Origin: an uncultured Bacteroidota bacterium
Lineage (GTDB): Bacteria > Bacteroidota > Bacteroidia > JABEUT01
Length of the DNA: 64,000 nucleotides
Assembly: GCA_903863935.1 (NCBI GenBank)
Contig: CAIPDV010000008.1
Span: forward strand, 1 to 64,000
Direction of reading: 5' to 3'
Position numbers and translations under genes: made by a program. The notes beneath the pieces are model-generated. The model was not told the DNA's origin. It was given only the letters and a program-made list of their open reading frames with translations, and did no database searches. This document shows, piece after piece, positions 47 to 50,695 of this stretch. Positions within the stretch are counted from its first letter, which is position 1; each line of letters starts with the position of its first letter.

Positions 47-69
47 TTAATTGCCGGTCGGGCTCTGAC
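47..69 (-). repeat. Stop-codon hairpin element, reverse-oriented copy
   Basis: Read on the minus strand this matches the GTCGG-AGC-CCGAC hairpin plus TGGCAA tail that follows several stop codons in the ribosomal operon, with two or three changes. It lies upstream of the dioxygenase gene. In this orientation no stop codon abuts it, unlike the other copies. Confidence 0.6.
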
Positions 70-110
70 CTTTCTTAAGATAGGTTAAGGTGGGATAACC
101 GGAATGGGTG

Positions 111-11968: not shown

Positions 11969-13711
11969 ATGAAAAAACAATTATCTAAATTATGTACACT
12001 TGTTGCCGTGGGATTATTTGCCCAGAGTTCAATATTTGCCCAGGGAACGTGGACATCCTTAACCAATACAGCACCCGATAATAATGGAGGTGAAATGATA
12101 TTGCTTACCGATGGAACAGTTATGGTGCTAACCCAGACAGGCCGCCGCGGAATTGGTAATACATGGGATTTGCTTACACCGGATATTCATGGAAGCTATA
12201 AGAACGGAACATGGACCAGACTGCCTGCCATGCACGATACGCGTTTATACATCGGTTGCCAGGTGCTGCCTGATGGAAATCTTTATGTTGCTGGTGGTGA
12301 ATATGGCACAGGTGGCCCTACGGGAGAATATTATAATACGGTTTCAAAAACATGGACCTATATTACAGGTGTGCCAAACAACTGGGATATTTATGATGGT
12401 AATTCCGAGATACTATACGATGGAACCGTATTACAGGCCGTTCAAATTTCGAATGCGCCGCACAGTTATGATAATTTGATATATCATCCCTCCACCAATA
12501 CATATGATTCAATTATGCCTTGTTTGGGTAATCACGATGAGGCTTCGTGGGTGAAACTGCGTGACAGTAGTGTAATGAATATTGACAGAGGAACACGCGT
12601 ATCAGAACGCTATATTCCACAGCAAGGTAAGTGGGTTGTAGATGGTAATGTTCCGGTAGATATGTACGACCCGACCTACCTGGAAACAGGTGCCGGGTTT
12701 ATGTTGCCGGACAGGCGTTTGTTTTTCCTTGGCGATGTTGCCTACACAGTATACTATACCCCAAGCGGAAATGCAAGCCCCGGAACTTTTGCAACAGGCC
12801 CTCAGATGCCAATGCAAAGCTCTACCCAGCTTGGATGTACCGATGCGCCTGCAGCCATGATGCCGAATGGAAAAATACTCTGTATATTTTCTCCTGCTGC
12901 AACCAATTTTAACCCGCCTGCTTATTTTTATGAGTTCGATTATACAACCAATACTTTCACCCAGATAAGTGCGCCTCCCGGCGGTTTAACAGTTAATGAT
13001 AACAGCGACTTTTTCAATTATCTGGATCTTCCGGATGGTACTGTTTTATATTCTCACCAAGGGGATAATCAATATTATTATTACACCCCGTCCGGTTCTC
13101 CGCTCGCTGCCGGTAAGCCAACAATCGATAATATTATTGCCACATGTCCAACATTTAAAATTACCGGCAAACTTTTCAACGGAATCTCCGAAGGGGCTGC
13201 CTATGGTGATGATTGGGCTATGTCTTCCAATTATCCTATCGTTCGTATTACCAACGGAACTAATGTATATTATGCCAAAACTACCAACTGGAATCGCATT
13301 GGTGCAGTAATGACAGATAGTCTCGAAGACACAGCCGATTTTTCAATTCCTACAATACCTGCCGGAACATATTCAGTTGTAGTGGTTGCGAATGGAAATC
13401 CTTCTAACCCTGTTTTGTTAACCCTTCCTTGTGTTTCAACAGGAGAACAACAACAGGTTGTTGAAGCGAATTCTGTTTCCGTTTTCCCGAATCCGAATAA
13501 TGGTTCTTTCATTGTAAAGTTTGCAAAAGGCATCGAGAAATCTCAATTACAGGTTTTCAATATGCTTGGTGAACGTGTTATGAATGAACAAATGCTTGGT
13601 TCTATTTCTGAGTATAATTTACCCAGCCAGCCAGCAGGTGTTTATTATTACAGGGCTTTGAATGTTAACGGGGCATTACTTGGAAGTGGGAAGTTTGTAA
13701 TTCGAAAATAA
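11969..13711 (+). CDS. T9SS-secreted galactose-oxidase-like kelch propeller protein (paralogue 1)
   Basis: 580 residues. A signal peptide ending SSIFAQ leads into kelch-type blades (LTDGTVMVL, VLPDGNLYVAGGEYGTG, DGNSEILYDGTVLQ, MMPNGKILC, LPDGTVLYS) that resemble a galactose-oxidase-like propeller. A beta-sandwich follows (GISEGAAYGDDW ... NYPIVRITNGTNVYYAKT ... PAGTYSVVVVANGNPS) like the early-set domain after such propellers. The end is a T9SS sorting domain (VFPNPNNGSFIVKF ... QPAGVYYYRAL). Copper ligands of true galactose oxidase were not identified, so enzyme activity is not claimed. Three paralogues lie in this window at 18862, 25069 and 46108. Gene 13757 follows after 45 bases and may be co-transcribed. 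Confidence 0.85.
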   Translation: MKKQLSKLCTLVAVGLFAQSSIFAQGTWTSLTNTAPDNNGGEMILLTDGTVMVLTQTGRRGIGNTWDLLTPDIHGSYKNGTWTRLPAMHDTRLYIGCQVLPDGNLYVAGGEYGTGGPTGEYYNTVSKTWTYITGVPNNWDIYDGNSEILYDGTVLQAVQISNAPHSYDNLIYHPSTNTYDSIMPCLGNHDEASWVKLRDSSVMNIDRGTRVSERYIPQQGKWVVDGNVPVDMYDPTYLETGAGFMLPDRRLFFLGDVAYTVYYTPSGNASPGTFATGPQMPMQSSTQLGCTDAPAAMMPNGKILCIFSPAATNFNPPAYFYEFDYTTNTFTQISAPPGGLTVNDNSDFFNYLDLPDGTVLYSHQGDNQYYYYTPSGSPLAAGKPTIDNIIATCPTFKITGKLFNGISEGAAYGDDWAMSSNYPIVRITNGTNVYYAKTTNWNRIGAVMTDSLEDTADFSIPTIPAGTYSVVVVANGNPSNPVLLTLPCVSTGEQQQVVEANSVSVFPNPNNGSFIVKFAKGIEKSQLQVFNMLGERVMNEQMLGSISEYNLPSQPAGVYYYRALNVNGALLGSGKFVIRK

Positions 13712-18861: not shown

Positions 18862-21300
18862 ATGAAAAAACAGTTATTCTCTATTTTAACACTTGCAACA
18901 GTTTCATTGCTTAGCTCAAGCAATATGGTTGCCCAGGGAACATGGACCCAGGTAGTCGCAAACGCTCCAAACTATAACATGGGCGTAATGTTATTGATGA
19001 CCGATGGAACCGTAATTTCTAAAGATGATGCCGGAAGCGGCAGTGGAACAGGCTGGAACAAACTTACACCGGACATCCACGGCAGTTATGTAAATGGAAC
19101 ATGGAGTTCTATTGCTTCCATGAACTACGACCGTTTGTTTTTTCCAACCCAAGTATTGCCCGATGGTAAAGTATTTGCCGCAGGAGGTGAATATGGCGCA
19201 GGTGCGACTCATGGTGAAGTATATGATCCGGTTGCTAATAAGTGGACCAATACAAATACCGTAGGTCAGAATATATATGATGGGAATTCTGAGATCCTCG
19301 CCAATGGAAGCGTATTGGTTGGATTGCAATTAGGAAATAACCCTTCTTACGATAACCTGTTTTATACTGAAAGTACTAACAACTGGACAAATGCTCCGGC
19401 TTCTCCATTAAATCACGACGAAGCGCAATGGCTCAAACTTCCTGACGGAAGTATTTTGTTTGTTGGAATCAGTTCAACCAAATCGTGCCGTTACATTCCA
19501 TCTACCAATACATGGGTGAATGATGCAACTGTTCCTGTTAGCTTATACGATAGTTATGGTTCAGAATCGGGTGCTGCTTTAATGCTCCCTAATGGAAAAG
19601 CCATTTTCTTCGGTACTACCGGGCATAACGCTATCTACACCCCATCTGGCACCAGCAGCCCTGGCACATGGACCGCCGCTGCCGACTTCCCAACTATTAG
19701 CGGGACTAAAACCGGACAAGTAGATGCCCCTGCATGTATGGAAACCAGCGGTAAAATTTTATGCGCTGTATCTCCGGTTAATACAAGTAATTCTGACCAG
19801 TTCCGTGCACCTACCTGGTTTGTTACCTATGATTACACTACAAACACATTTGCACAGGAAACAGCAGTTTTGCCTGGTTTGGGAGCTGATTCACTTGCAG
19901 GAATAGATTGTGATTTTGTGAATTTTCTACTGCTTCCTAACGGACAAATTTTACTCGGAATAAATCAACAATCTATTTCGAATCAATATTGGATCTATAC
20001 TCCTCCGGGAACTCCACTTGCAGTAGGTATTCCAACTATTAACAATGTTACTGAAATATCATGTGGTTACTATCGTGTCACGGGTAAATTATTCAATGGT
20101 ATTTCTGAAGGAACTGCTTTTGGCGACGACTGGCAAATGGAAACCAACTATCCTATAGTTCAGCTTACAAATGGCACGAATGTTTATTATGCGAAAACTT
20201 CCAAATGGAACAGGATTGGTGCTGTAAGAACAGACAGCCTTGCTGATACTGCATATTTTACTGTTCCATCAATTCCTGCCGGAACGTATTCATTGGTAGT
20301 AATTGCAAATGCATATCCTTCAAAGCCTACCTTATTTACTCCATTTGCTGCTACTGCACAGGCAACTGCTAATGTAAGTTGCAACGGTGGAACAAATGGG
20401 GCAGCAACCGCAGTTGTTTCGGGAGGTAATACACCGTATACATATAAATGGGCGAATGGTTCATCTACGGTTTCAACTGTAAACCCTACCGGTTCTATAC
20501 TAAGTGCAGGAACCTACACGCTTACAGTTACCGATAAAATCGGATGTACTACAACTACTACTGTCACCATTACTCAACCGGCTCTATTAAGGGTTACAGG
20601 CAGAGCACCAAATGAAATTAGCTGCCATGGTGGAGCAAACGGAAGTGTGGCCGCAAGCCCTGCCGGTGGAACTGCTCCATATACCTATGCATGGTCAGCT
20701 GGAGGAACCAATATATCACAATCAGGTCTTTCTGCAGGAACATATACTGTAACCGTTACCGATTTGAATGGTTGCACTGCGACAGGTACTGCCGTGGTAA
20801 CTCAACCTGCTGCTCTTGCACTAGTAAAAGGTACGTATACGGCATGGCCTGCAACCTGTAATGGTGAAGCGTGGGTTACCCCAAGCGGAGGTACCGCTCC
20901 ATTTGCATATAGCTGGAGTCCCGGCGGACAGACTACAGACACTATTAAAGGTCAGTGTGCTAATAATACCTATTGCTGCACAGTAACCGATAAGAATGGT
21001 TGTATTGATTCAGTTTGTGTAACTATCGTGACAGGAATTCAAAATATCAGCAATTCTTCCTTCATCAATATTTATCCTGATCCGAACAATGGTACTTTCT
21101 TCATTGAAATTTCTACTCCTTACAACAAATCAATTGTTGAGATTGATAATGTTTTAGGCCAACAAGTATTGAGGCAGGAAATTACCGGAACTAAGAATGA
21201 ACTAAACCTGAACACACAACCTTCAGGAGTATATTTCTACAAGGTAATATCTGAAACAGGAAGTGTTTTGGGTAATGGCAAACTGATAATTCAGAAGTAA
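18862..21300 (+). CDS. T9SS-secreted kelch propeller protein with SprB repeats (paralogue 2)
   Basis: 812 residues. It has the same architecture as the gene at 11969: signal peptide ending SNMVAQ, kelch propeller (about 27-395), then the KLFNGISEGTAFGDDW / NYPIVQLTNGTNVYYAKT sandwich (about 400-495). It differs in carrying three SprB-type repeats (about 500-730) before the sorting domain (IYPDPNNGTFFIEI ... QPSGVYFYKVI). The third repeat (GGQTTDTIKGQCANN ... NGCIDSVCVTI) closely matches the last repeat of the protein at 1397, showing module exchange. The sorting domain has PDP in place of PNP and no loop insertion. A hairpin element directly follows the stop codon, then a strong terminator. 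Confidence 0.87.
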   Translation: MKKQLFSILTLATVSLLSSSNMVAQGTWTQVVANAPNYNMGVMLLMTDGTVISKDDAGSGSGTGWNKLTPDIHGSYVNGTWSSIASMNYDRLFFPTQVLPDGKVFAAGGEYGAGATHGEVYDPVANKWTNTNTVGQNIYDGNSEILANGSVLVGLQLGNNPSYDNLFYTESTNNWTNAPASPLNHDEAQWLKLPDGSILFVGISSTKSCRYIPSTNTWVNDATVPVSLYDSYGSESGAALMLPNGKAIFFGTTGHNAIYTPSGTSSPGTWTAAADFPTISGTKTGQVDAPACMETSGKILCAVSPVNTSNSDQFRAPTWFVTYDYTTNTFAQETAVLPGLGADSLAGIDCDFVNFLLLPNGQILLGINQQSISNQYWIYTPPGTPLAVGIPTINNVTEISCGYYRVTGKLFNGISEGTAFGDDWQMETNYPIVQLTNGTNVYYAKTSKWNRIGAVRTDSLADTAYFTVPSIPAGTYSLVVIANAYPSKPTLFTPFAATAQATANVSCNGGTNGAATAVVSGGNTPYTYKWANGSSTVSTVNPTGSILSAGTYTLTVTDKIGCTTTTTVTITQPALLRVTGRAPNEISCHGGANGSVAASPAGGTAPYTYAWSAGGTNISQSGLSAGTYTVTVTDLNGCTATGTAVVTQPAALALVKGTYTAWPATCNGEAWVTPSGGTAPFAYSWSPGGQTTDTIKGQCANNTYCCTVTDKNGCIDSVCVTIVTGIQNISNSSFINIYPDPNNGTFFIEISTPYNKSIVEIDNVLGQQVLRQEITGTKNELNLNTQPSGVYFYKVISETGSVLGNGKLIIQK

Positions 21301-25068: not shown

Positions 25069-26862
25069 ATGATTAAAAAGTTTACTACCTCGCTTGCAAT
25101 TGCATGTTCTTTACTAATTTCCGGTATAAGCGGTTCTGCGCAAGGAACCTGGCAAACTCTTACCAATATTGCCCCGCATGATAATGGAGGAGTTATGTTG
25201 TTGCTTACCGATGGAACCGTAATGTGTTTAACAGAATTTGACCCTACAAATAGCGGCATTGGAAACACGTGGGATCTGTTGACCCCCGATAACCATGGGA
25301 GTTACTTAAATGGAACATGGAGCGTTCTTACACCTATGATAAGTACCCGCCTCTATATTGGTTCGCAGGTGCTGCCAAATGGCAATGTATATGCAGCGGG
25401 TGGCGAGTATGGCACAGGCGGATCATTAGGAGAAGTGTACAATACAACCACGAAAACATGGACCGCCATTACCGGGATCCCTGCTTTCTGGGATATTTAT
25501 GACGGAAATTCGGAGATACTATATAATGGAGATGTTTTGCAAGGTGTTCAAATATCACCAGACTGGTTAATCAGCGGTATGAGTATTGACAATATGCTCT
25601 ATCACCCGGGAACCAATAGTTGCGATACTGCCATGCGTTGTTTTGGAAGTCACGATGAATCATCATGGGTAAAGCTGCGAGACAGCAGCATTATCAATGT
25701 GGATATGGGGACAAAAAACTCCGAGAGATATATACCTCAAACAGGCAAGTGGGTTAAAGATGCCAACTTACCAATTGACCTGTATGACCATAAGTTATTT
25801 GAAACCGGAGCCGGATTTTTATTGCCAAATGGCAAGCTGTTCTTTTTAGGCGATTCTATCTATACTGCCATCTATACCCCTTCGGGCAATGCTAGTCCGG
25901 GTAGTTGGGTGCAGGGGCCACAGATGCCGGTTGTTAATGGCGTGCAATTGGGTTGCTCCGATGCGGCTGCAGCCATGATGCCCAATGGAAAGATCCTCTG
26001 CGATTTTTCTCCTGCAGGAACTTACAACAACCCGATTTACTTTTTTGAGTTCGATTATACTACGAACACGTTTACCCAAATAAAAGCTTTTAACGGAATT
26101 GATACCGTTAGCAACAACAGCGATTTTGTAAATATGCTGGACCTGCCTGATGGAACAGTACTTGTTTCGGAACAGGGTGACAGTGCATATTACCAATACA
26201 CTCCGTCGGGAAATCCACTTGCATCGGGTAAACCAACTATTGATGACATTACCGGAACCTGCCCCAATTATGTAGTTACCGGAAAGTTGTTCAATGGTAT
26301 TTCGGAAGGTGCAGCTTATGGCGACGACTGGCAGTGCTCCACTAACTATCCTATAGTAAGGCTTACCGATGGAACTAATGTATATTATGCTAAATCGACC
26401 AATTGGAATAGGATAGGAGCGGTGATGACCGATAGTCTACCTGATACCGCCGACTTTGTGATTCCAAATGGAATGCCTGCAGGTACTTACTCAGTGGTTG
26501 TAATAGCAAATGGAATTCAATCAAATCCAACTATGCTTACTACTAACTGTTCGCCAAATGCGGTTCAGGATATTAAAGGTGGAAATGGTAATGTGACAGT
26601 TTATCCGAATCCAGGCAATGGGCAATTTACATTGCAAATCAGGAATTACGAATTAGGAATTAGGAATGTGGAAGTATTCAATGTATTGGGTGAACAAGTG
26701 TATTCTCAATCCAATATTCAAAATCCCCGTCCGAACGGTTCAGCCGGGCGGGCAACATTCAAAATTAATCTGGGAAGCCAGCCTGCAGGGGTTTATTTCT
26801 ACAGGGTTTTGAGTGAAACTGGCGTAGTAATAGGGGATGGGAAGATTGTGATTGAGAAATAA
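25069..26862 (+). CDS. T9SS-secreted kelch propeller protein (paralogue 3)
   Basis: 597 residues with signal peptide (to SGSAQ), kelch propeller and early-set-like sandwich closely matching the protein at 11969 (shared LTDGTVM, NGNVYAAGGEYGTGG, GISEGAAYGDDW, NRIGAVMTDSL). The sorting domain begins VYPNPGNGQFTLQI and ends QPAGVYFYRVL, but two loops hold translated dispersed repeats: RNYELGIRN from an AATTACGAATTAGG-type repeat, and NPRPNGSAGRAT from a 29-bp palindromic element that also occurs, inverted, in gene 46108. A TAGTTTTG promoter box lies upstream. The role is presumably extracellular, as for the other paralogues. Confidence 0.86.
   Translation: MIKKFTTSLAIACSLLISGISGSAQGTWQTLTNIAPHDNGGVMLLLTDGTVMCLTEFDPTNSGIGNTWDLLTPDNHGSYLNGTWSVLTPMISTRLYIGSQVLPNGNVYAAGGEYGTGGSLGEVYNTTTKTWTAITGIPAFWDIYDGNSEILYNGDVLQGVQISPDWLISGMSIDNMLYHPGTNSCDTAMRCFGSHDESSWVKLRDSSIINVDMGTKNSERYIPQTGKWVKDANLPIDLYDHKLFETGAGFLLPNGKLFFLGDSIYTAIYTPSGNASPGSWVQGPQMPVVNGVQLGCSDAAAAMMPNGKILCDFSPAGTYNNPIYFFEFDYTTNTFTQIKAFNGIDTVSNNSDFVNMLDLPDGTVLVSEQGDSAYYQYTPSGNPLASGKPTIDDITGTCPNYVVTGKLFNGISEGAAYGDDWQCSTNYPIVRLTDGTNVYYAKSTNWNRIGAVMTDSLPDTADFVIPNGMPAGTYSVVVIANGIQSNPTMLTTNCSPNAVQDIKGGNGNVTVYPNPGNGQFTLQIRNYELGIRNVEVFNVLGEQVYSQSNIQNPRPNGSAGRATFKINLGSQPAGVYFYRVLSETGVVIGDGKIVIEK
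26643..26667. repeat. GAATTACGAATTAGG-type repeat read in frame
   Basis: This low-complexity word, also seen non-coding at 37819-37853, here encodes an insertion in the first loop of the T9SS sorting domain. Confidence 0.65.
26725..26753. repeat. 29-bp palindromic element in T9SS domain, copy A
   Basis: It matches the reverse complement of 47694-47722 at 28 of 29 positions. Internal arms CCCGTCCG and CGGGCGGG pair with one wobble. It is read in frame in the second loop of the sorting domain. Confidence 0.85.
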
Positions 26863-28465: not shown

Positions 28466-28864
28466 ATGCCAACAATACAGCAGTTAATTCGCACAGGCAG
28501 AACGAAGGCAAAATATAAAAGCAAGTCGGGAGCATTGGATAGGTGTCCGCAACGCAGGGGTGTTTGCATCCGTGTGTACACAACCACACCTAAAAAGCCA
28601 AACTCCGCATTGCGTAAGGTAGCCAAGGTGCGTTTGACCAACAAAGAAGAAATTATAGCTTACGTACCCGGAGAAGGTCACAACCTTCAGGAACACAGTA
28701 TCGTATTGGTACGTGGAGGCAGGGTAAAGGATCTTCCTGGTGTTCGTTACCACATTGTACGTGGCACATTGGATACCGGAGGTGTTGATAACCGCAAACA
28801 AAGCCGCAGCAAATACGGAACTAAGAGACCTAAAGCAGGTGCCGCAGCAGCAGCCAAAAAGTAA
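28466..28864 (+). CDS. rpsL: 30S ribosomal protein S12
   Basis: 132 residues, full length. Decoding-site protein with the invariant stretches [16 protein letters not shown] and [13 protein letters not shown]; lysines at the two classical streptomycin-resistance positions are of the sensitive type. First gene of the ribosomal operon, with an Ala-rich C-terminal tail. A repeat-filled 72-base gap follows before rpsG. Confidence 0.98.
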
Positions 28865-28929
28865 TTAGAAATTAATAATTAGTAATTAGAAATTAAAAAC
28901 TGATAACTGTCCACTGACCACTGATAACT
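28864..28929. repeat. Dispersed repeats between rpsL and rpsG
   Basis: AATTAGAAATTA-type words at 28864-28898 are followed at 28899-28929 by ACTGATAACTGTCCACTGACC-like words related to the 71-bp element at 43913 and 50614. Placed wholly between the two genes. Confidence 0.65.
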
Positions 28930-29404: not shown

Positions 29405-29412
29405 TTTTAACT

Positions 29413-29441
29413 AACAACTGATAACTGACCACTGACAACTG
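29413..29441. repeat. ACTGACCACTGACAACT-type repeat before fusA
   Basis: It fills most of the 41-base gap between rpsG and fusA and is a partial copy of the right half of the 71-bp element at 43913 and 50614. Confidence 0.65.
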
Positions 29442-37494: not shown

Positions 37495-37818
37495 ATGACA
37501 AAAATAAAGTTAAAAAAAGGTGATTTAGTTAAGGTTATAGCCGGAAACTCCCGTGGGAGAGAAGGTAAGATCCTTGATATTGATACCGACAAGTACAGAG
37601 CATTTGTAGAAGGTGTGAACATTGTTCACAAACATACCAAGCCTAATCAGAAGACCCCGAAAGGCGGAATTGTGAAGAAAGAAGCATCTGTGCATATTTC
37701 AAACCTGATGATCATTGACCCGAATGGAGGAGCTCCAACACGAGTGGGCCGTTCAGTAGATGAAAAATCAGGCAGACTGGTTAGAATTTCAAAGAAATCA
37801 GGCGAAGCCATTAAGTAA
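37495..37818 (+). CDS. rplX: 50S ribosomal protein L24
   Basis: 107 residues. Assembly initiator at the tunnel exit. KOW motif KKGDLVKVIAGNSRGREGKIL is intact. The gap after it (37819-37853) is filled with TTACGAATTA-type repeats. Confidence 0.97.
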   Translation: MTKIKLKKGDLVKVIAGNSRGREGKILDIDTDKYRAFVEGVNIVHKHTKPNQKTPKGGIVKKEASVHISNLMIIDPNGGAPTRVGRSVDEKSGRLVRISKKSGEAIK

Positions 37819-37853
37819 TTACGAATTAAAAATTACGAATTACGAATAAAAAA
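37819..37853. repeat. TTACGAATTA-type low-complexity repeat
   Basis: Three iterations between rplX and rplE. The same word family is translated in the sorting domain of gene 25069 (26643-26667). Confidence 0.6.
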
Positions 37854-37867
37854 GATAAAGAAAGAAA

Positions 37868-40762: not shown

Positions 40763-40939
40763 ATGGCAAAAGTTAAAATAAAACAGGTACGCAGCGGGAT
40801 AGACCATCCGGCTGATCAGAAGAGAACCCTTCGTGCTCTTGGTTTCACCAAGATGAACCAGGTTATCGAAAAAGAAGGAACCCCACAGGTAATGGGTATG
40901 ATACGTAAAGTGCATCACCTGGTAGATATTGTAAAGTAA
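40763..40939 (+). CDS. rpmD: 50S ribosomal protein L30
   Basis: 58 residues, starting MAKVKIKQVRSGIDHPADQK and ending GMIRKVHHLVDIVK, the normal size for bacterial L30. The position between rpsE and rplO is the canonical one. It is short, so it is easily missed by length-filtered gene calling. Confidence 0.97.
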   Translation: MAKVKIKQVRSGIDHPADQKRTLRALGFTKMNQVIEKEGTPQVMGMIRKVHHLVDIVK

Positions 40940-40957
40940 TTAGAAACTAAAAATTAG

Positions 40958-43692: not shown

Positions 43693-43908
43693 ATGACCAA
43701 ACAACAATCCATACAGCAAGACGGTACCATTACCGAAGCATTGTCGAACGCAATGTTCAGGGTGGAACTCGAAAACGGCCATATGGTTACGGCTCATATT
43801 TCGGGTAAGATGCGTATGAACTACATTAAGCTTTTGCCAGGCGACAAAGTGAAACTGGAACTCTCGCCATACGATTTGAGTAAGGGAAGAATTATTATGA
43901 GATATTAA
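43693..43908 (+). CDS. infA: Translation initiation factor IF-1
   Basis: 71 residues, OB fold. [50 protein letters not shown] matches the family throughout. Its place between map and rpmJ is canonical. Confidence 0.98.
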
Positions 43909-43912
43909 AGAA

Positions 43913-43983
43913 AGTAGTCAGTGGTCAGTTGACAGTAGTCAGAAGCTACTTAACTGACCACTGATAACTGACCACTGACAACT
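43913..43983 (+). repeat. 71-bp palindromic repeat, copy 1 (infA-rpmJ gap)
   Basis: Arms AGTGGTCAGTT (43920-43930) and AACTGACCACT (43952-43962) enclose a 21-base loop; a further ACTGACCACTGACAACT iteration follows at 43991-44006. About 90 percent identical to 50614-50684 in the same orientation. Confidence 0.85.
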
Positions 43984-44017
43984 AAGAAAAACTGACCACT
44001 GACAACTAAAAGAAACC

Positions 44018-44693: not shown

Positions 44694-45992
44694 ATGAAAG
44701 GGAAAATTATTTTACTTGTTTCTGTTTTGTCGTTTGCTGTTAATCTTTATTCACAAACTTGGAAAAGAATAAACTCTCCAACAAGTACGGCTCTTGGTTC
44801 ATGCTCATTTGTAAATAAAGATACCGGTTGGGTTACTTCAAATGACTCTGTATTCAAAACTATGGATGGAGGAATTACCTGGATAAATCAAGCTACTCCG
44901 TCTGTTCCATCTTATGTTACTTTTAGTTTTTATAACGTGTATTTCATCAATTACAAGGTTGGAATTATTGACTGTTTATTTACTTTAGACTCTGCTACCA
45001 GTAAGCTTGTTGGAACAATATTATGGACAAATGACGCTGGTAATCATTGGGAATTTAAAGACATAGGAAACCCTTGTTGTAATATGAATGCAACTTTAGT
45101 TGATCCATATGTGGCTTTTGGAATTGGGCAATATGGAGTCGGTAAGAAAACTACTGATTCTGGTGCAACTTGGTCTAGTTTTAATTATTATCCACTTTAC
45201 AGTGGAGAAAAACTATTTGCTTTTAATCCTGATACAGTTTATTTTGCAGGCCTAGATAACTTCCACTTACTTGGTGCATTTGGAAAAACGCTGGATGGAG
45301 GTTCCAATTGGAATATTAATACAATTTCCACTAACAAAGGATTTACTGCCATTTATTTTTGTAATTATAATAAAGGCTGGGTTGGAGGCGATATGGGCGT
45401 AATAAAATACACAGTAAACGGAGGTAATTCGTGGATCGGAACCGGTTCGCAACTTGTTACCTTAAGTAATATTCAGGATATTGCATTTACCGATACTCTC
45501 AATGGATGGGCGATAACCTCAGATGGAAAAATTATTCATTCTACTGATGGTGGTATTGCCTGGTCAATTAATTACAAAGGAACCGATGCACTGTTTGCCA
45601 TGTGTTTTACCAAGCCAGATGGGATTGGTTATGCTGTTGGAGACAGTGGCAGAGTATTGAAATATGAGCAATTAAGTGCTACCCAAAAAATCAACTATGA
45701 GATTGTTTATTCGTTGTACCCCAACCCCAACAATGGCAAATTTACTTTGGAAGTGAATACCGATAGCTATCGGGATGATAATGTAAAAGTGAAAAATATA
45801 GAGGTGTTTAATGTGCTTGGGGAATCGGTGCTAAAACAGACCCTTCGCTCCGCTCAGCCTGCCCGAACTGGTACAGGCGGGGGTGACAATCTCATTGACC
45901 TTACAAATCAACCCAACGGGGTTTATTTCTACCGGGTTCTTTCTGAGATTGGGTCTTTAATAGGTGAGGGGAAGGTGGTTGTTCAGAGATAG
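44694..45992 (+). CDS. T9SS-secreted Ycf48/BNR-like propeller protein
   Basis: 432 residues. Signal peptide (MKGKIILLVSVLSFAVNLYS) followed by Ycf48-like or sialidase-type blades: KDTGWVTSNDSVFKTMDGGITW, GTILWTNDAGNHWEF, KKTTDSGATWSSF, FGKTLDGGSNWNI, VIKYTVNGGNSW and IIHSTDGGIAWSI. The sorting domain (LYPNPNNGKFTLEV ... QPNGVYFYRVL) carries two insertions: TDSYRDDN from the palindrome CCGATAGCTATCGG (45760-45773), and RSAQPARTGTGGGD from adjacent repeats including a hairpin at 45858-45881. A TATCTTTA box lies at 44668-44675. This gene lies in the gap that splits the spc and alpha blocks. Confidence 0.86.
   Translation: MKGKIILLVSVLSFAVNLYSQTWKRINSPTSTALGSCSFVNKDTGWVTSNDSVFKTMDGGITWINQATPSVPSYVTFSFYNVYFINYKVGIIDCLFTLDSATSKLVGTILWTNDAGNHWEFKDIGNPCCNMNATLVDPYVAFGIGQYGVGKKTTDSGATWSSFNYYPLYSGEKLFAFNPDTVYFAGLDNFHLLGAFGKTLDGGSNWNINTISTNKGFTAIYFCNYNKGWVGGDMGVIKYTVNGGNSWIGTGSQLVTLSNIQDIAFTDTLNGWAITSDGKIIHSTDGGIAWSINYKGTDALFAMCFTKPDGIGYAVGDSGRVLKYEQLSATQKINYEIVYSLYPNPNNGKFTLEVNTDSYRDDNVKVKNIEVFNVLGESVLKQTLRSAQPARTGTGGGDNLIDLTNQPNGVYFYRVLSEIGSLIGEGKVVVQR
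45760..45773. repeat. Palindrome in first loop of T9SS domain
   Basis: CCGATAGCTATCGG is a perfect 14-bp palindrome, in frame, between the KFTLEV strand and the IEVFNVLGE strand. Confidence 0.75.
45858..45881. repeat. Hairpin element in second loop of T9SS domain
   Basis: CCTGCC and GGCGGG arms (one wobble) enclose CGAACTGGTACA. The shape and the CCGAACNGGT core resemble the 29-bp element at 26725 and 47694. The preceding CTTCGCTCCGCTCAG is a second repeat-like word. Confidence 0.65.
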
Positions 45993-46107: not shown

Positions 46108-47904
46108 ATGAAAAAAACACTACTCCATGTTAAATCCTTTTCCGGCTTCTTTAAAATAGGAATGCTGTGTATTTCCTTATTTATATTCAGGCAAAGCCCT
46201 GCCCAAGGCACATGGACTGCCATTAACAATTTAGCTCCTGCACCCGAAGGCGGTGGCATGGTTTTGCTGACGGATGGAACTGTAATGTGCAAAACGTATT
46301 CGCCGGGAGGATGGCCAACCCCTGATAGTGGCTGGGTTCTGCTTACTCCCGATAGTCATGGTAGTTATGTGAATGGCACCTGGAGCACATTGCCCAATAT
46401 GCACTATGGCCGCTTTGCGTTTTCTTCTCAGGTTATGCCCGATGGCAACGTATACATTGCCGGAGGCGAGCATGGCAACGGAACCAACACTGCAGAGTTA
46501 TATAATACGGTCACTAAAAAATGGAAGGATATTCCCAATTCCCCGGGTTTTGATATTGAAGATGCTAATTCGGAATTACTATACGATGGCACAGTGCTCG
46601 AAGGTTGTGGGAATCCCTATAATCCGCCGATAGATACAATAAATCTTATGTACATGCCAGGCACCGGTTCGTTTATTGCCGGACCATCCAGTTTTGGAAC
46701 CCATGAGGAAAGCTCCTGGTTAAAACTGCCTGACAGCAGCGTATTATCGGTAGATGCTATTACAAGAAATTCGGAACGGTACATTCCGCAGCAACATAAA
46801 TGGGTGCACGATGGCACTCTTCCGGTTGACCTGTTTGACCCGGGATCGTATGAAACGGGTGCCTGTGTACTACTGCCTAATGGCAAAGGTTTTTTTATTG
46901 GCGATATACAATACACCGCAATATATACTCCGAGCGGCAATGCTAGTCCCGGAACCTGGTCTACAGGGTCTGCCATGCCAACACGGGCAGGTATTGGTCA
47001 GTTAGCTTCGTGGGACGGCCCGGCTGCTATGATGGTGAACGGGAATGTACTATGTACTTTTAGTGCTCCGGCGAGTGAAAGCGAACCAACCTTTTTCTAT
47101 GAATATAATTACCTCACCAATGCATTTACAGCAGTGTCAGCCCCCGGCAATGTTGATTCGGCACTTACCTGGTCTAATTTCATGACCCTGCTCCAATTGC
47201 CCGATGGAAGCGTAATGTTGGGATATACCGATTCTACCCGGTTCTATATTTATAAACCAAGCGGTTCCGCTATTCCTCAGGGTATACCAACCATCAACGA
47301 AGTGGCTTCCAATAACTGTGATACATTTAGAATTACCGGCAAATTATTCAACGGAATATCTGAAGGGGCGGGCTTTGGCGATGATTGGCAGATGTCTACC
47401 AATTATCCGATTGTAAGGGTTACCGATGGTACCAATGTTTATTATGCTAAAACATTTAACTGGAACCGGCTTGGTGCACTAAGGACAGATAGTTTGGAAG
47501 ATACAGCCTATTTTACTTTCCCGAATGCAATACCCGCAGGTACCTATTCACTGGTGGTAGTTGCAAATGGTTTCCCGTCCAAGCCTGTTCTATTTGGTCC
47601 TTGCATTACTGCTATTGCAGATATAAAAGACCAAAAGAATATCAGCATTTTTCCTAACCCTTCAAAAGGCAAATTCACAATACAGTCATCAGTGCCCGCC
47701 CGGATGAACCGTTCGGACGGGGTCAGTGCTCTGTGGTCAGTGGATGTTTATAATTTAATGGGGCAGCGAGTTAAGAGTGAAGAACTAAGAGCGAAGAGTG
47801 AAGAAATTGACCTTACAGGTCAACCTAATGGGGTATATTTCTATCGGGTTCTTTCGGAGAATGGCGGTTTAATAGGCGAGGGGAAGGTGGTGATTCAGAA
47901 ATAG
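46108..47904 (+). CDS. T9SS-secreted kelch propeller protein (paralogue 4)
   Basis: 598 residues. N-terminal signal (hydrophobic GMLCISLFIFRQSPAQ), kelch propeller and the shared KLFNGISEGAGFGDDW / NYPIVRVTDGTNVYYAKT sandwich as in the genes at 11969, 18862 and 25069. The sorting domain (IFPNPSKGKFTIQ ... QPNGVYFYRVL) is the most invaded in the window: VPARMNRSDG from the 29-bp palindromic element, SALWSV from GTCAGTG-type repeat sequence, and KSEELRAKSEE from the 35-bp repeat. It lies within the interruption between rpmJ and rpsM. The leaderless-type promoter supports this ATG. Confidence 0.86.
   Translation: MKKTLLHVKSFSGFFKIGMLCISLFIFRQSPAQGTWTAINNLAPAPEGGGMVLLTDGTVMCKTYSPGGWPTPDSGWVLLTPDSHGSYVNGTWSTLPNMHYGRFAFSSQVMPDGNVYIAGGEHGNGTNTAELYNTVTKKWKDIPNSPGFDIEDANSELLYDGTVLEGCGNPYNPPIDTINLMYMPGTGSFIAGPSSFGTHEESSWLKLPDSSVLSVDAITRNSERYIPQQHKWVHDGTLPVDLFDPGSYETGACVLLPNGKGFFIGDIQYTAIYTPSGNASPGTWSTGSAMPTRAGIGQLASWDGPAAMMVNGNVLCTFSAPASESEPTFFYEYNYLTNAFTAVSAPGNVDSALTWSNFMTLLQLPDGSVMLGYTDSTRFYIYKPSGSAIPQGIPTINEVASNNCDTFRITGKLFNGISEGAGFGDDWQMSTNYPIVRVTDGTNVYYAKTFNWNRLGALRTDSLEDTAYFTFPNAIPAGTYSLVVVANGFPSKPVLFGPCITAIADIKDQKNISIFPNPSKGKFTIQSSVPARMNRSDGVSALWSVDVYNLMGQRVKSEELRAKSEEIDLTGQPNGVYFYRVLSENGGLIGEGKVVIQK
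47694..47722. repeat. 29-bp palindromic element in T9SS domain, copy B
   Basis: Reverse complement of 26725-26753 with one difference in 29. Read in frame in the opposite orientation to copy A, in the first loop of the sorting domain. Confidence 0.85.
47768..47802. repeat. 35-bp dispersed repeat in T9SS domain
   Basis: 32 of 35 bases match 23698-23732. Here it encodes the charged second-loop insertion of the sorting domain. Confidence 0.82.
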
Positions 47905-47905
47905 G

Positions 47906-48071
47906 GTTCATTCATTAGCCCCATCCTTTAGGTCAGGGTATAAAATGCGCTAATTATTAATTCAGAGGGCTTTAGCCCTTACATGTTAAAATTTGTAAGG
48001 GCTAAAGCCCTAAAATAATGGTCTTGTATTTCCCCTAACCCCAACCTAAAGGATGGGGCTAATGAATGAAC
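47906..48071. repeat. 166-bp nested palindromic (MITE-like) element
   Basis: Outer arms 47906-47933 and 48044-48071 are perfect 28-bp inverted repeats, starting GTTCATTCATTAGCCCCATC. An inner pair, AGGGCTTTAGCCCTTACA (47966-47983) and its complement (47994-48011), is a perfect 18-bp stem with a 10-base loop. It starts two bases after the stop of gene 46108 and ends 47 bases before the rpsM promoter box. No target-site duplication was seen. Confidence 0.88.
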
Positions 48072-49615: not shown

Positions 49616-50608
49616 ATGGCAATACTTGCATTTCAAAAACCCGACAAAGTTGTAATGACTTCTTCTAACGAGGTAGAAGGCGAATTTGAATTCAAACCAT
49701 TAGAACCCGGATATGGCATCACCATTGGTAATGCACTCCGCCGTATTTTGCTCTCTTCATTAGAAGGGTTTGCAATTTCTTCTGTAAAAATTCAAGGTGT
49801 TGACCATGAATTTTCAACCATTAAAGGTGTTACCGAAGATACAACCGAAATCGTTTTGAATTTGAAACAAGTTCGTTTCAAAAAGCAAATTGAAGGTACC
49901 ACAAACGAAAAAGTAACTATTTCTGTTAGCGATAAAGACGTATTTACCGCTGGCGATATTGGCAAATTCACATCAGCATTCCAGGTATTGAACCCTGATC
50001 TGGTTATCTGCCGTATGGAGCCTAACGTAAAACTTCGCTTGGAAATTACAATTGCTAAAGGCCGTGGATATGTTCCTGCTGAAGAAAACAAGCCACTTAC
50101 ACCTGAAATTGGTTTGATTCCGATTGACTCTATCTTTACTCCTATAAAGAACGTAAGATATCAAGTTGAAAACTTCCGTGTAGAACAAAAGACAGACTTT
50201 GAAAAGCTTGTTTTGACTGTTGTTACCGATGGTTCTATTCATCCTAAAGAAGCTTTGAAAGAAGCAGCTAAGATTTTGATTTACCACTTTGCATTGTTCT
50301 CCGATGAAAAAATCACTATTGATTTGGACAGCAAGAACCAAAGCGAAGAACTGGATGAACAAGACCTGCGTATTCGCCAGTTGCTTAAAACCAAATTGGT
50401 TGATATGGACTTGTCAGTACGTGCGCTTAACTGCTTAAAGGCGGCTGAAGTTGCTACCCTCGGACATTTGGTTCAATTCAACAAGAACGATCTTTTGAAG
50501 TTCCGTAACTTTGGTAAAAAATCACTTACTGAAATTGAAGACATGATCAAGACCAAAAGTCTGAACTTCGGTATGAACGTTGACAAATACAGACTCGAAA
50601 ACGAATAA
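49616..50608 (+). CDS. rpoA: RNA polymerase subunit alpha
   Basis: 330 residues. N-terminal dimerisation domain ([17 protein letters not shown]) and C-terminal helix-hairpin-helix domain ([44 protein letters not shown]). Length is normal. Bacteroidota RNA polymerase containing this subunit recognises the TAnnTTTG boxes noted here. Confidence 0.98.
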
Positions 50609-50613
50609 ATAAA

Positions 50614-50684
50614 AGTAGTCAGTGGTCAGTTATCAGTAGTCAGGGACTACTCAACTGACCACTGATAACTGACTACTGACAACT
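50614..50684 (+). repeat. 71-bp palindromic repeat, copy 2 (rpoA-rplQ gap)
   Basis: Arms AGTGGTCAGTT (50621-50631) and AACTGACCACT (50653-50663). Differs from 43913-43983 at about seven positions and is exactly the same length. It occupies almost the whole rpoA-rplQ gap. Confidence 0.85.
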
Positions 50685-50695
50685 ATTAAAAAGAA

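Follow-up and report, generated by a model that had tools for sequence, protein, structure and literature searches.

A probably mobile 27-bp DNA hairpin lying in frame in protein genes of Bacteroidota and sporadically in other phyla

Two kelch-type genes of an uncultured Bacteroidota bacterium each carry, within the part that encodes the C-terminal T9SS sorting domain, nearly the same 29 bp in opposite orientation, which raises the question of what this sequence is and how it came to lie twice in coding DNA. The two stretches, inverted repeat I3 among the inverted repeats of the window (the whole 64,000 nucleotides of contig CAIPDV010000008.1 analysed here), are reverse complements at 28 of 29 positions, and no such pair arose in 100 dinucleotide shuffles. 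The first-pass annotation had described this match, its location in the sorting domains of kelch paralogues and the difference in loops and peptides, and all of these descriptions were correct. The Pfam domain Por_Secre_tail was found in both ORFs (Table 1), and the two copies occupy different sorting-domain loops and are read in different directions, giving the peptides PRPNGSAGRA (copy 1, with flanking bases) and PARMNRSDG (copy 2). Neither insert was present in the paralogue at 11969-13711 or in the homologues of two related species.

Table 1. Positions of the hairpin element, its host genes and neighbouring repeats in the window.
Feature	Position	Strand	Remark
29-bp pair, first member, CCCCGTCCGAACGGTTCAGCCGGGCGGGC	26725..26753	+	
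29-bp pair, second member	47694..47722	-	
27-bp hairpin element copy 1, CCCGTCCGAACGGTTCAGCCGGGCGGG	26726..26752	+	insertion relative to paralogues
27-bp hairpin element copy 2, opposite orientation	47695..47721	-	in host ORF 46108-47904
Host gene 1 (kelch gene 3): kelch-type secreted protein, C-terminal T9SS sorting domain	25069..26862	+	Por_Secre_tail, residues 511-594
Sorting domain of kelch gene 3	~26599..26850		
Host gene 2 (kelch gene 4): kelch-type paralogue, C-terminal T9SS sorting domain	46108..47904	+	Por_Secre_tail, residues 514-589
Sorting domain of kelch gene 4	~47647..47874		
Paralogous empty site AAAACAGACCCTTCGCTCCGCTCAG, third sorting domain (ORF 44694-45992)	45833..45857	+	compare occupied loop in L004
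24-bp sister hairpin of 8 codons, CCTGCCCGAACTGGTACAGGCGGG; in frame, same loop as the empty site	45858..45881	+	identical at L004 1544-1567
AATTACGAATTAGGAATT repeats	26634..26681; 28853..28900; 37807..37854; 40933..40957		first in kelch gene 3, otherwise between genes
AGTCGGAGCCCGACTGGCAA palindromic repeats	21295; 31553; 36712; 38446; 39778		
AGTCGGAGCCCGACTGGCAA palindromic repeat	51..70	-	
GTTCATTCATTAGCCCC.. inverted repeat	47906..48071		directly 3' of kelch gene 4
CTGACCACTGATAACTGACCACTGACAACT repeats	29407..29440; 43904..44007; 50605..50692		long inverted repeats between genes

The host genome (3.76 Mb, 126 contigs) contained 16 copies of the 29-mer at up to 3 mismatches and 17 copies of its 25-bp core, so that the pair in the window is not an isolated one; a reversed control pattern gave 0 matches. 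These and all further copy numbers are lower bounds, since they rest on pattern matching that allowed 3 mismatches at most. The two window copies are independent insertions, as had been proposed, because they lie in different loops and orientations, the paralogues are without them and the genome holds 17 copies.

Alignment of the genome copies yielded a conserved unit of 27 bp, CCCGTCCGAACGGTTCATCCGGGCGGG, preceded by a variable base and usually followed by C. Comparison with empty sites gave the same length: the annotated 29-bp repeat is real, and the mobile unit within it is 27 bp. In cysteine desulfurase the arrangement GAAAAC-27 bp-GGGCAT stands against the empty sequence GAAAACGGGCAC of a sister species, and in an Fe-S oxidoreductase the element is present in species G005; the window's own host lacks it there, as do seven further species. 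A ribulose-phosphate epimerase gene carries it in one Patescibacteria genome; eight relatives from the same family are without it, so this is an insertion in a genuine Patescibacteria gene. A paralogous empty site lies in a third sorting domain in the window (Table 1), and its occupied counterpart in L004 reads AAAACAGATC, the 27-bp element and CTTCGCTCCTCTCAG. No target duplication beyond one ambiguous C was found in the empty-site comparisons, which show clean insertion of exactly 27 bp at both orthologous and paralogous sites.

The earlier description of the sequence as palindromic holds for an imperfect hairpin, with an outer stem CCCGTCC/GGGCGGG that contains one G-T pair, an inner stem GAA/TTC and the loop CGG. 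Its predicted DNA fold is unexceptional for such GC-rich sequence (z about -0.4 to -1.0). Structure was analysed on 187 distinct sites, picked by pattern similarity and largely from draft and metagenome-assembled genomes. Across these sites the outer arms are nearly invariant, while positions 10 and 14 covary from A-T to C-G, being paired in 51 of 88 distinct sequences (35.9 expected; 0 of 2000 shuffles reached the observed value). The main central versions are GAACGGTTC and GACCGGGTC. Covariation was significant in only one of the ten pairs, the other nine being nearly invariant and therefore uninformative; it is evidence for a hairpin whose inner stem has three pairs. A search of Rfam found no family in the window.

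Related copies were found in about 30-40 other genomes, mostly of Chitinophagaceae and other Bacteroidota, with 1-27 copies per genome in 29 of them. An exact 23-base pattern matched 54 stretches in GTDB genomes, whose carriers include Chitinophagaceae, Niastella, Niabella, Agriterribacter, Segetibacter, Daejeonella, Taibaiella and further Bacteroidota, and, outside this phylum, five Patescibacteria and one Brocadiia MAG. Presence is patchy: of ten other species in the host's genus, three have the element, as do 3 of 247 Bacteroidota (host included) and 2 of 380 Patescibacteria, one of these with a different loop that may be a chance match. IMG/VR and phage records gave no match, and plasmids only weak partial ones. 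We infer that the element reached the rare lineages horizontally. The near identity of the window copies had been taken as a sign of recent spread, which is partly supported; copies from distant genera and from Patescibacteria are equally similar, so near identity also reflects constraint on sequence or structure. Literature searches by sequence strings returned no relevant paper on the element, and those on coding palindromes in Bacteroidota nothing on point.

T9SS sorting domains, about 0.65% of the host genome by an approximate estimate from 108 tblastn matches, hold four of its 17 copies (p ~4e-6). Loops of these domains appear to be permissive landing places, and other repeat families occur there too. 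A AATTACGAATTAGGAATT repeat occupies the other loop of the kelch gene 3 sorting domain, so that both of its loops contain repeat-derived sequence. The 24-bp sister hairpin CCTGCCCGAACTGGTACAGGCGGG has in turn been inserted into a longer repeat, CTTCGCTC..CTCAG^GATGACA.

Further repeats lie elsewhere in the window. The palindromic repeat AGTCGGAGCCCGACTGGCAA starts in several cases at or beside a stop codon (ORFs ending at 21300, 31554, 38446 and 39778), a position like that of REPs that supply a stop codon. The inverted repeat GTTCATTCATTAGCCCC behind kelch gene 4 is, by its likeness to the hairpins flanking the RAYT-type gene in L017, probably the REPIN of that transposase. A remnant of the CTGACCACTGATAACTGACCACTGACAACT repeats, GTCAGTGCTCTGTGGTCAGTGG, adjoins element copy 2 in the coding loop.

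Target sequences were examined by removing the 27 bp and checking the joined flanks for a perfect stem of at least 7 bp across the junction. Such stems were present at 27 of 129 non-genic sites, compared with 22 of 514 control points, and at 9 of 58 genic sites, compared with 11 of 231. Recognisable targets are CGTC-type repeats (GCGAAG^CAATCT), CACG^CAGAG repeats and other hairpins of similar design (L069); at L131, a relative sits in the middle of another one (AACG^GTTC). The repeated junctions GCGAAG^CAATCT and CACG^CAGAG may be copies of a duplicated composite repeat and not independent events, for which reason the count of hairpin targets is an upper estimate of independent events. Read in this way, the flanking sequences suggest that the element favours hairpin-forming targets.

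Which enzyme moves the element is the point on which the strongest rival explanation turns, namely that it is the REP of a resident RAYT and thus part of a classical REP/REPIN system of the host genome. Its size, hairpin form and clean insertion are consistent with such a system, and Y1 transposases were present in 30 of 32 genomes tested. The RAYT search that the first-pass annotation had suggested did find seven Y1 (PF01797) RAYT-type genes in the host genome, but these are flanked by other hairpins, such as ATCCACGACCTAAAGGTCGTGGCAA and CATCCCTTCGGGAT. When PF01797 was searched in 33 genomes and the gene flanks were inspected, the element lay beside 0 of 37 Y1 loci, and linkage to a RAYT was rejected. 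On contig 64 a RAYT-type gene is about 0.9 kb from a copy, but that copy sits inside a glycosyltransferase gene. The GTAG consensus is absent from the element and its left flank, and the 187 sites, mostly singletons, include 5 pairs within 400 bp, of which 1 is inverted; with no GTAG tag and few dimers, the element is not a standard RAYT substrate. The idea of a dedicated RAYT is thus not supported, and we consider the resident-RAYT explanation unlikely.

All-against-all clustering of the ORFs within 2.5 kb of the element at 76 loci revealed no linked mobility gene, the only large cluster being T9SS proteins, which are themselves targets. No Y1 gene was detected in two element-bearing Patescibacteria, whose genomes are small and possibly incomplete. 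Because insertion is clean, the element is a hairpin and its targets are hairpin-prone, mobilisation in trans by an HUH/Y1 enzyme of the RAYT/IS200 type seems the most plausible route, to which we give slightly less than even credence.

About one third of the 187 sites lie inside ORFs, in frame. As 27 bp are a whole number of codons and only one of the six frames has a stop, an insertion adds nine hydrophilic, Pro/Gly-rich residues. Frame use was counted at 48 clearly intragenic sites that had open reading on both sides, with no condition placed on the element itself. The main frame (ARPDDPVGR type) was used at 32 sites and a second (RPNGSSGR type) at 9, followed by 4, 2 and 1, and the stop-bearing frame at 0; the chance probability is 1.6e-4 for the empty stop-bearing frame and 3e-12 for the main frame. 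Most intragenic copies encode ARPD(D/E)P(V/F)GR, directly before glycine. Of 34 inserts in the main frame, 29 are followed by Gly and 27 preceded by Asn, Lys, Glu or Asp, a pattern that makes turn positions likely.

Genes with an insert encode PheS, FumC, UvrA, TrpE, urocanate hydratase, lipoamide dehydrogenase, acetate-CoA ligase, acetylglutamate kinase, PntA, RecN, superoxide dismutase, kynurenine monooxygenase, MoeA, Tgt, an IS66 transposase and cysteine desulfurase. Compared with solved structures, superoxide dismutase, PheS and FumC show a nine-residue insertion at one point and are otherwise normal enzymes; in kynurenine monooxygenase the alignment gap covers a slightly longer stretch. 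An AlphaFold model of the cysteine desulfurase with its insert adds little: with a mean pLDDT of 70.6 it is of moderate quality, and it puts the insert, residues 124-131, in an unstructured loop at pLDDT below 50. In PheS (L316/L322) and TrpE (L304/L319) two related genomes or species have the insert at one and the same codon. Insertions may therefore outlast speciation, or the element may have entered that point more than once.

The two trpE copies match at 26 of 27 positions, against 76% identity between the genes themselves, a hint of gene conversion, of constraint or of recurrent insertion at a single site. This lower divergence, together with the conservation of the element across phyla, is what could be expected if it were kept for a useful peptide or hairpin acting in RNA stability, regulation or as a binding tag. 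But insertions differ between close relatives and occur in unrelated genes, in both orientations and in several frames; about two thirds of copies are outside candidate genes, and carriers are as scattered as 3 in 247 Bacteroidota and 2 in 380 Patescibacteria. We regard retention for such a function as improbable.

Yeast mitochondrial byp elements and GC clusters are likewise tiny, enzyme-less mobile hairpins, found in AT-rich genomes, and byps also lie in genes. Because the byp elements of Magnusiomyces mitochondria are of comparable size, also form hairpins and also lie in coding genes, the inserts could by analogy be skipped by the ribosome. Against this stand a length that always keeps the frame, avoidance of the stop-bearing frame (0 of 48), concentration in one frame (32 of 48) and X-Gly turn sites, which bypass would not require, and we judge it very improbable; unlike byp, the element is bacterial and apparently translated. 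Descent of the two window copies from an ancestral gene, or a large inverted duplication, has in its favour that both host genes are paralogues, but it is refuted by the different loops and opposite orientation, the non-homologous flanks (which also dispose of a longer inverted block), the paralogues without insert and 15 further copies elsewhere in the genome.

We are therefore fairly confident that the element is a non-autonomous mobile 27-bp DNA hairpin, REP-like and selfish, which behaves like a miniature Rickettsia palindromic element. The hairpin would insert cleanly, mostly before C and often into hairpin-capable sequence such as REP-like repeats and related hairpins, presumably through a single-stranded intermediate (lagging-strand or cruciform) and with an enzyme supplied in trans. 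Within a gene it would add its nine hydrophilic, Pro/Gly-rich residues, and selection would retain the insertions that fall into a turn at the protein surface, mostly X-Gly, and into one of the two mildest frames. Its persistence would then be neutral-selfish and not owed to a useful peptide. A bolder reading, possible but doubtful, is that the element has been shaped for protein: nine codons, five of six frames open and mild turn-forming peptides, moved by an unrecognised enzyme, able to settle in essential enzymes and present across distant bacterial phyla; the sister hairpins of 24 and 27 bp would then point to an entire superfamily of codon-length insertions. The many natural nine-residue insertions with empty-site orthologues open the insertion tolerance of proteins, the effect of the peptide and the identity of the enzyme that mobilises 'orphan' REPs to direct tests, also in culturable hosts (Niastella, Agriterribacter, Segetibacter).

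Among known systems, RAYT-associated REPs and REPINs differ from the element in that it flanks none of the 37 Y1 loci inspected, GTAG is missing and inverted pairs are few. With IS200/IS605 and RAYT (Y1 HUH) systems it shares a hairpin substrate and insertion without target duplication, and their preference for single-strand-prone DNA would fit its targets, but no gene is linked to it and the guide tetranucleotide was not found. From MITEs of DDE transposons it is set apart by short, imperfect inverted ends and no duplication beyond the ambiguous single C. CGTC/GTAG REPs are 20-40 bp hairpins from several phyla, some of them in genes; CGTC REPs have an unpaired terminal CGTC, a stem starting with AT and a CCA tail, no linked transposase is known for them, and other palindromes serve as insertion sites for some REPs (Di Nocera et al, 2013, PMC3733652). 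The CGTC of the element (positions 3-6) lies instead within the stem, its ends are CCC...GGG, there is no CCA tail, dimers are few, the stem is different, and it inserts itself into CGTC-type repeats. Because the tested features of GTAG/RAYT REPs, CGTC REPs and DDE-type MITEs fail, we assign it to no named family and call it a short palindromic repeat with in-gene insertions. The closest parallel is the RPE (Ogata et al, 2000, 2002). According to PMC2229807, PMC3767692 and PMC10969869, RPEs are palindromes reported in Rickettsia and Wolbachia, about 84-150 bp long, in frame in conserved unrelated genes and also intergenic, tolerated and without known mobilising enzyme. Like these RPEs, the element is palindromic, in frame in conserved protein genes and also intergenic; unlike them, it is 27 bp, three to five times shorter and unrelated in sequence, and occurs not in Rickettsiales but in Bacteroidota, Patescibacteria and a Brocadiia MAG. 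Most of what is known of in-frame selfish palindromes comes from Rickettsia and Wolbachia, other cases being scattered intragenic REPs; the one described here is far smaller, at nine codons, and lies in core enzymes of free-living Bacteroidota and sporadically in unrelated phyla.
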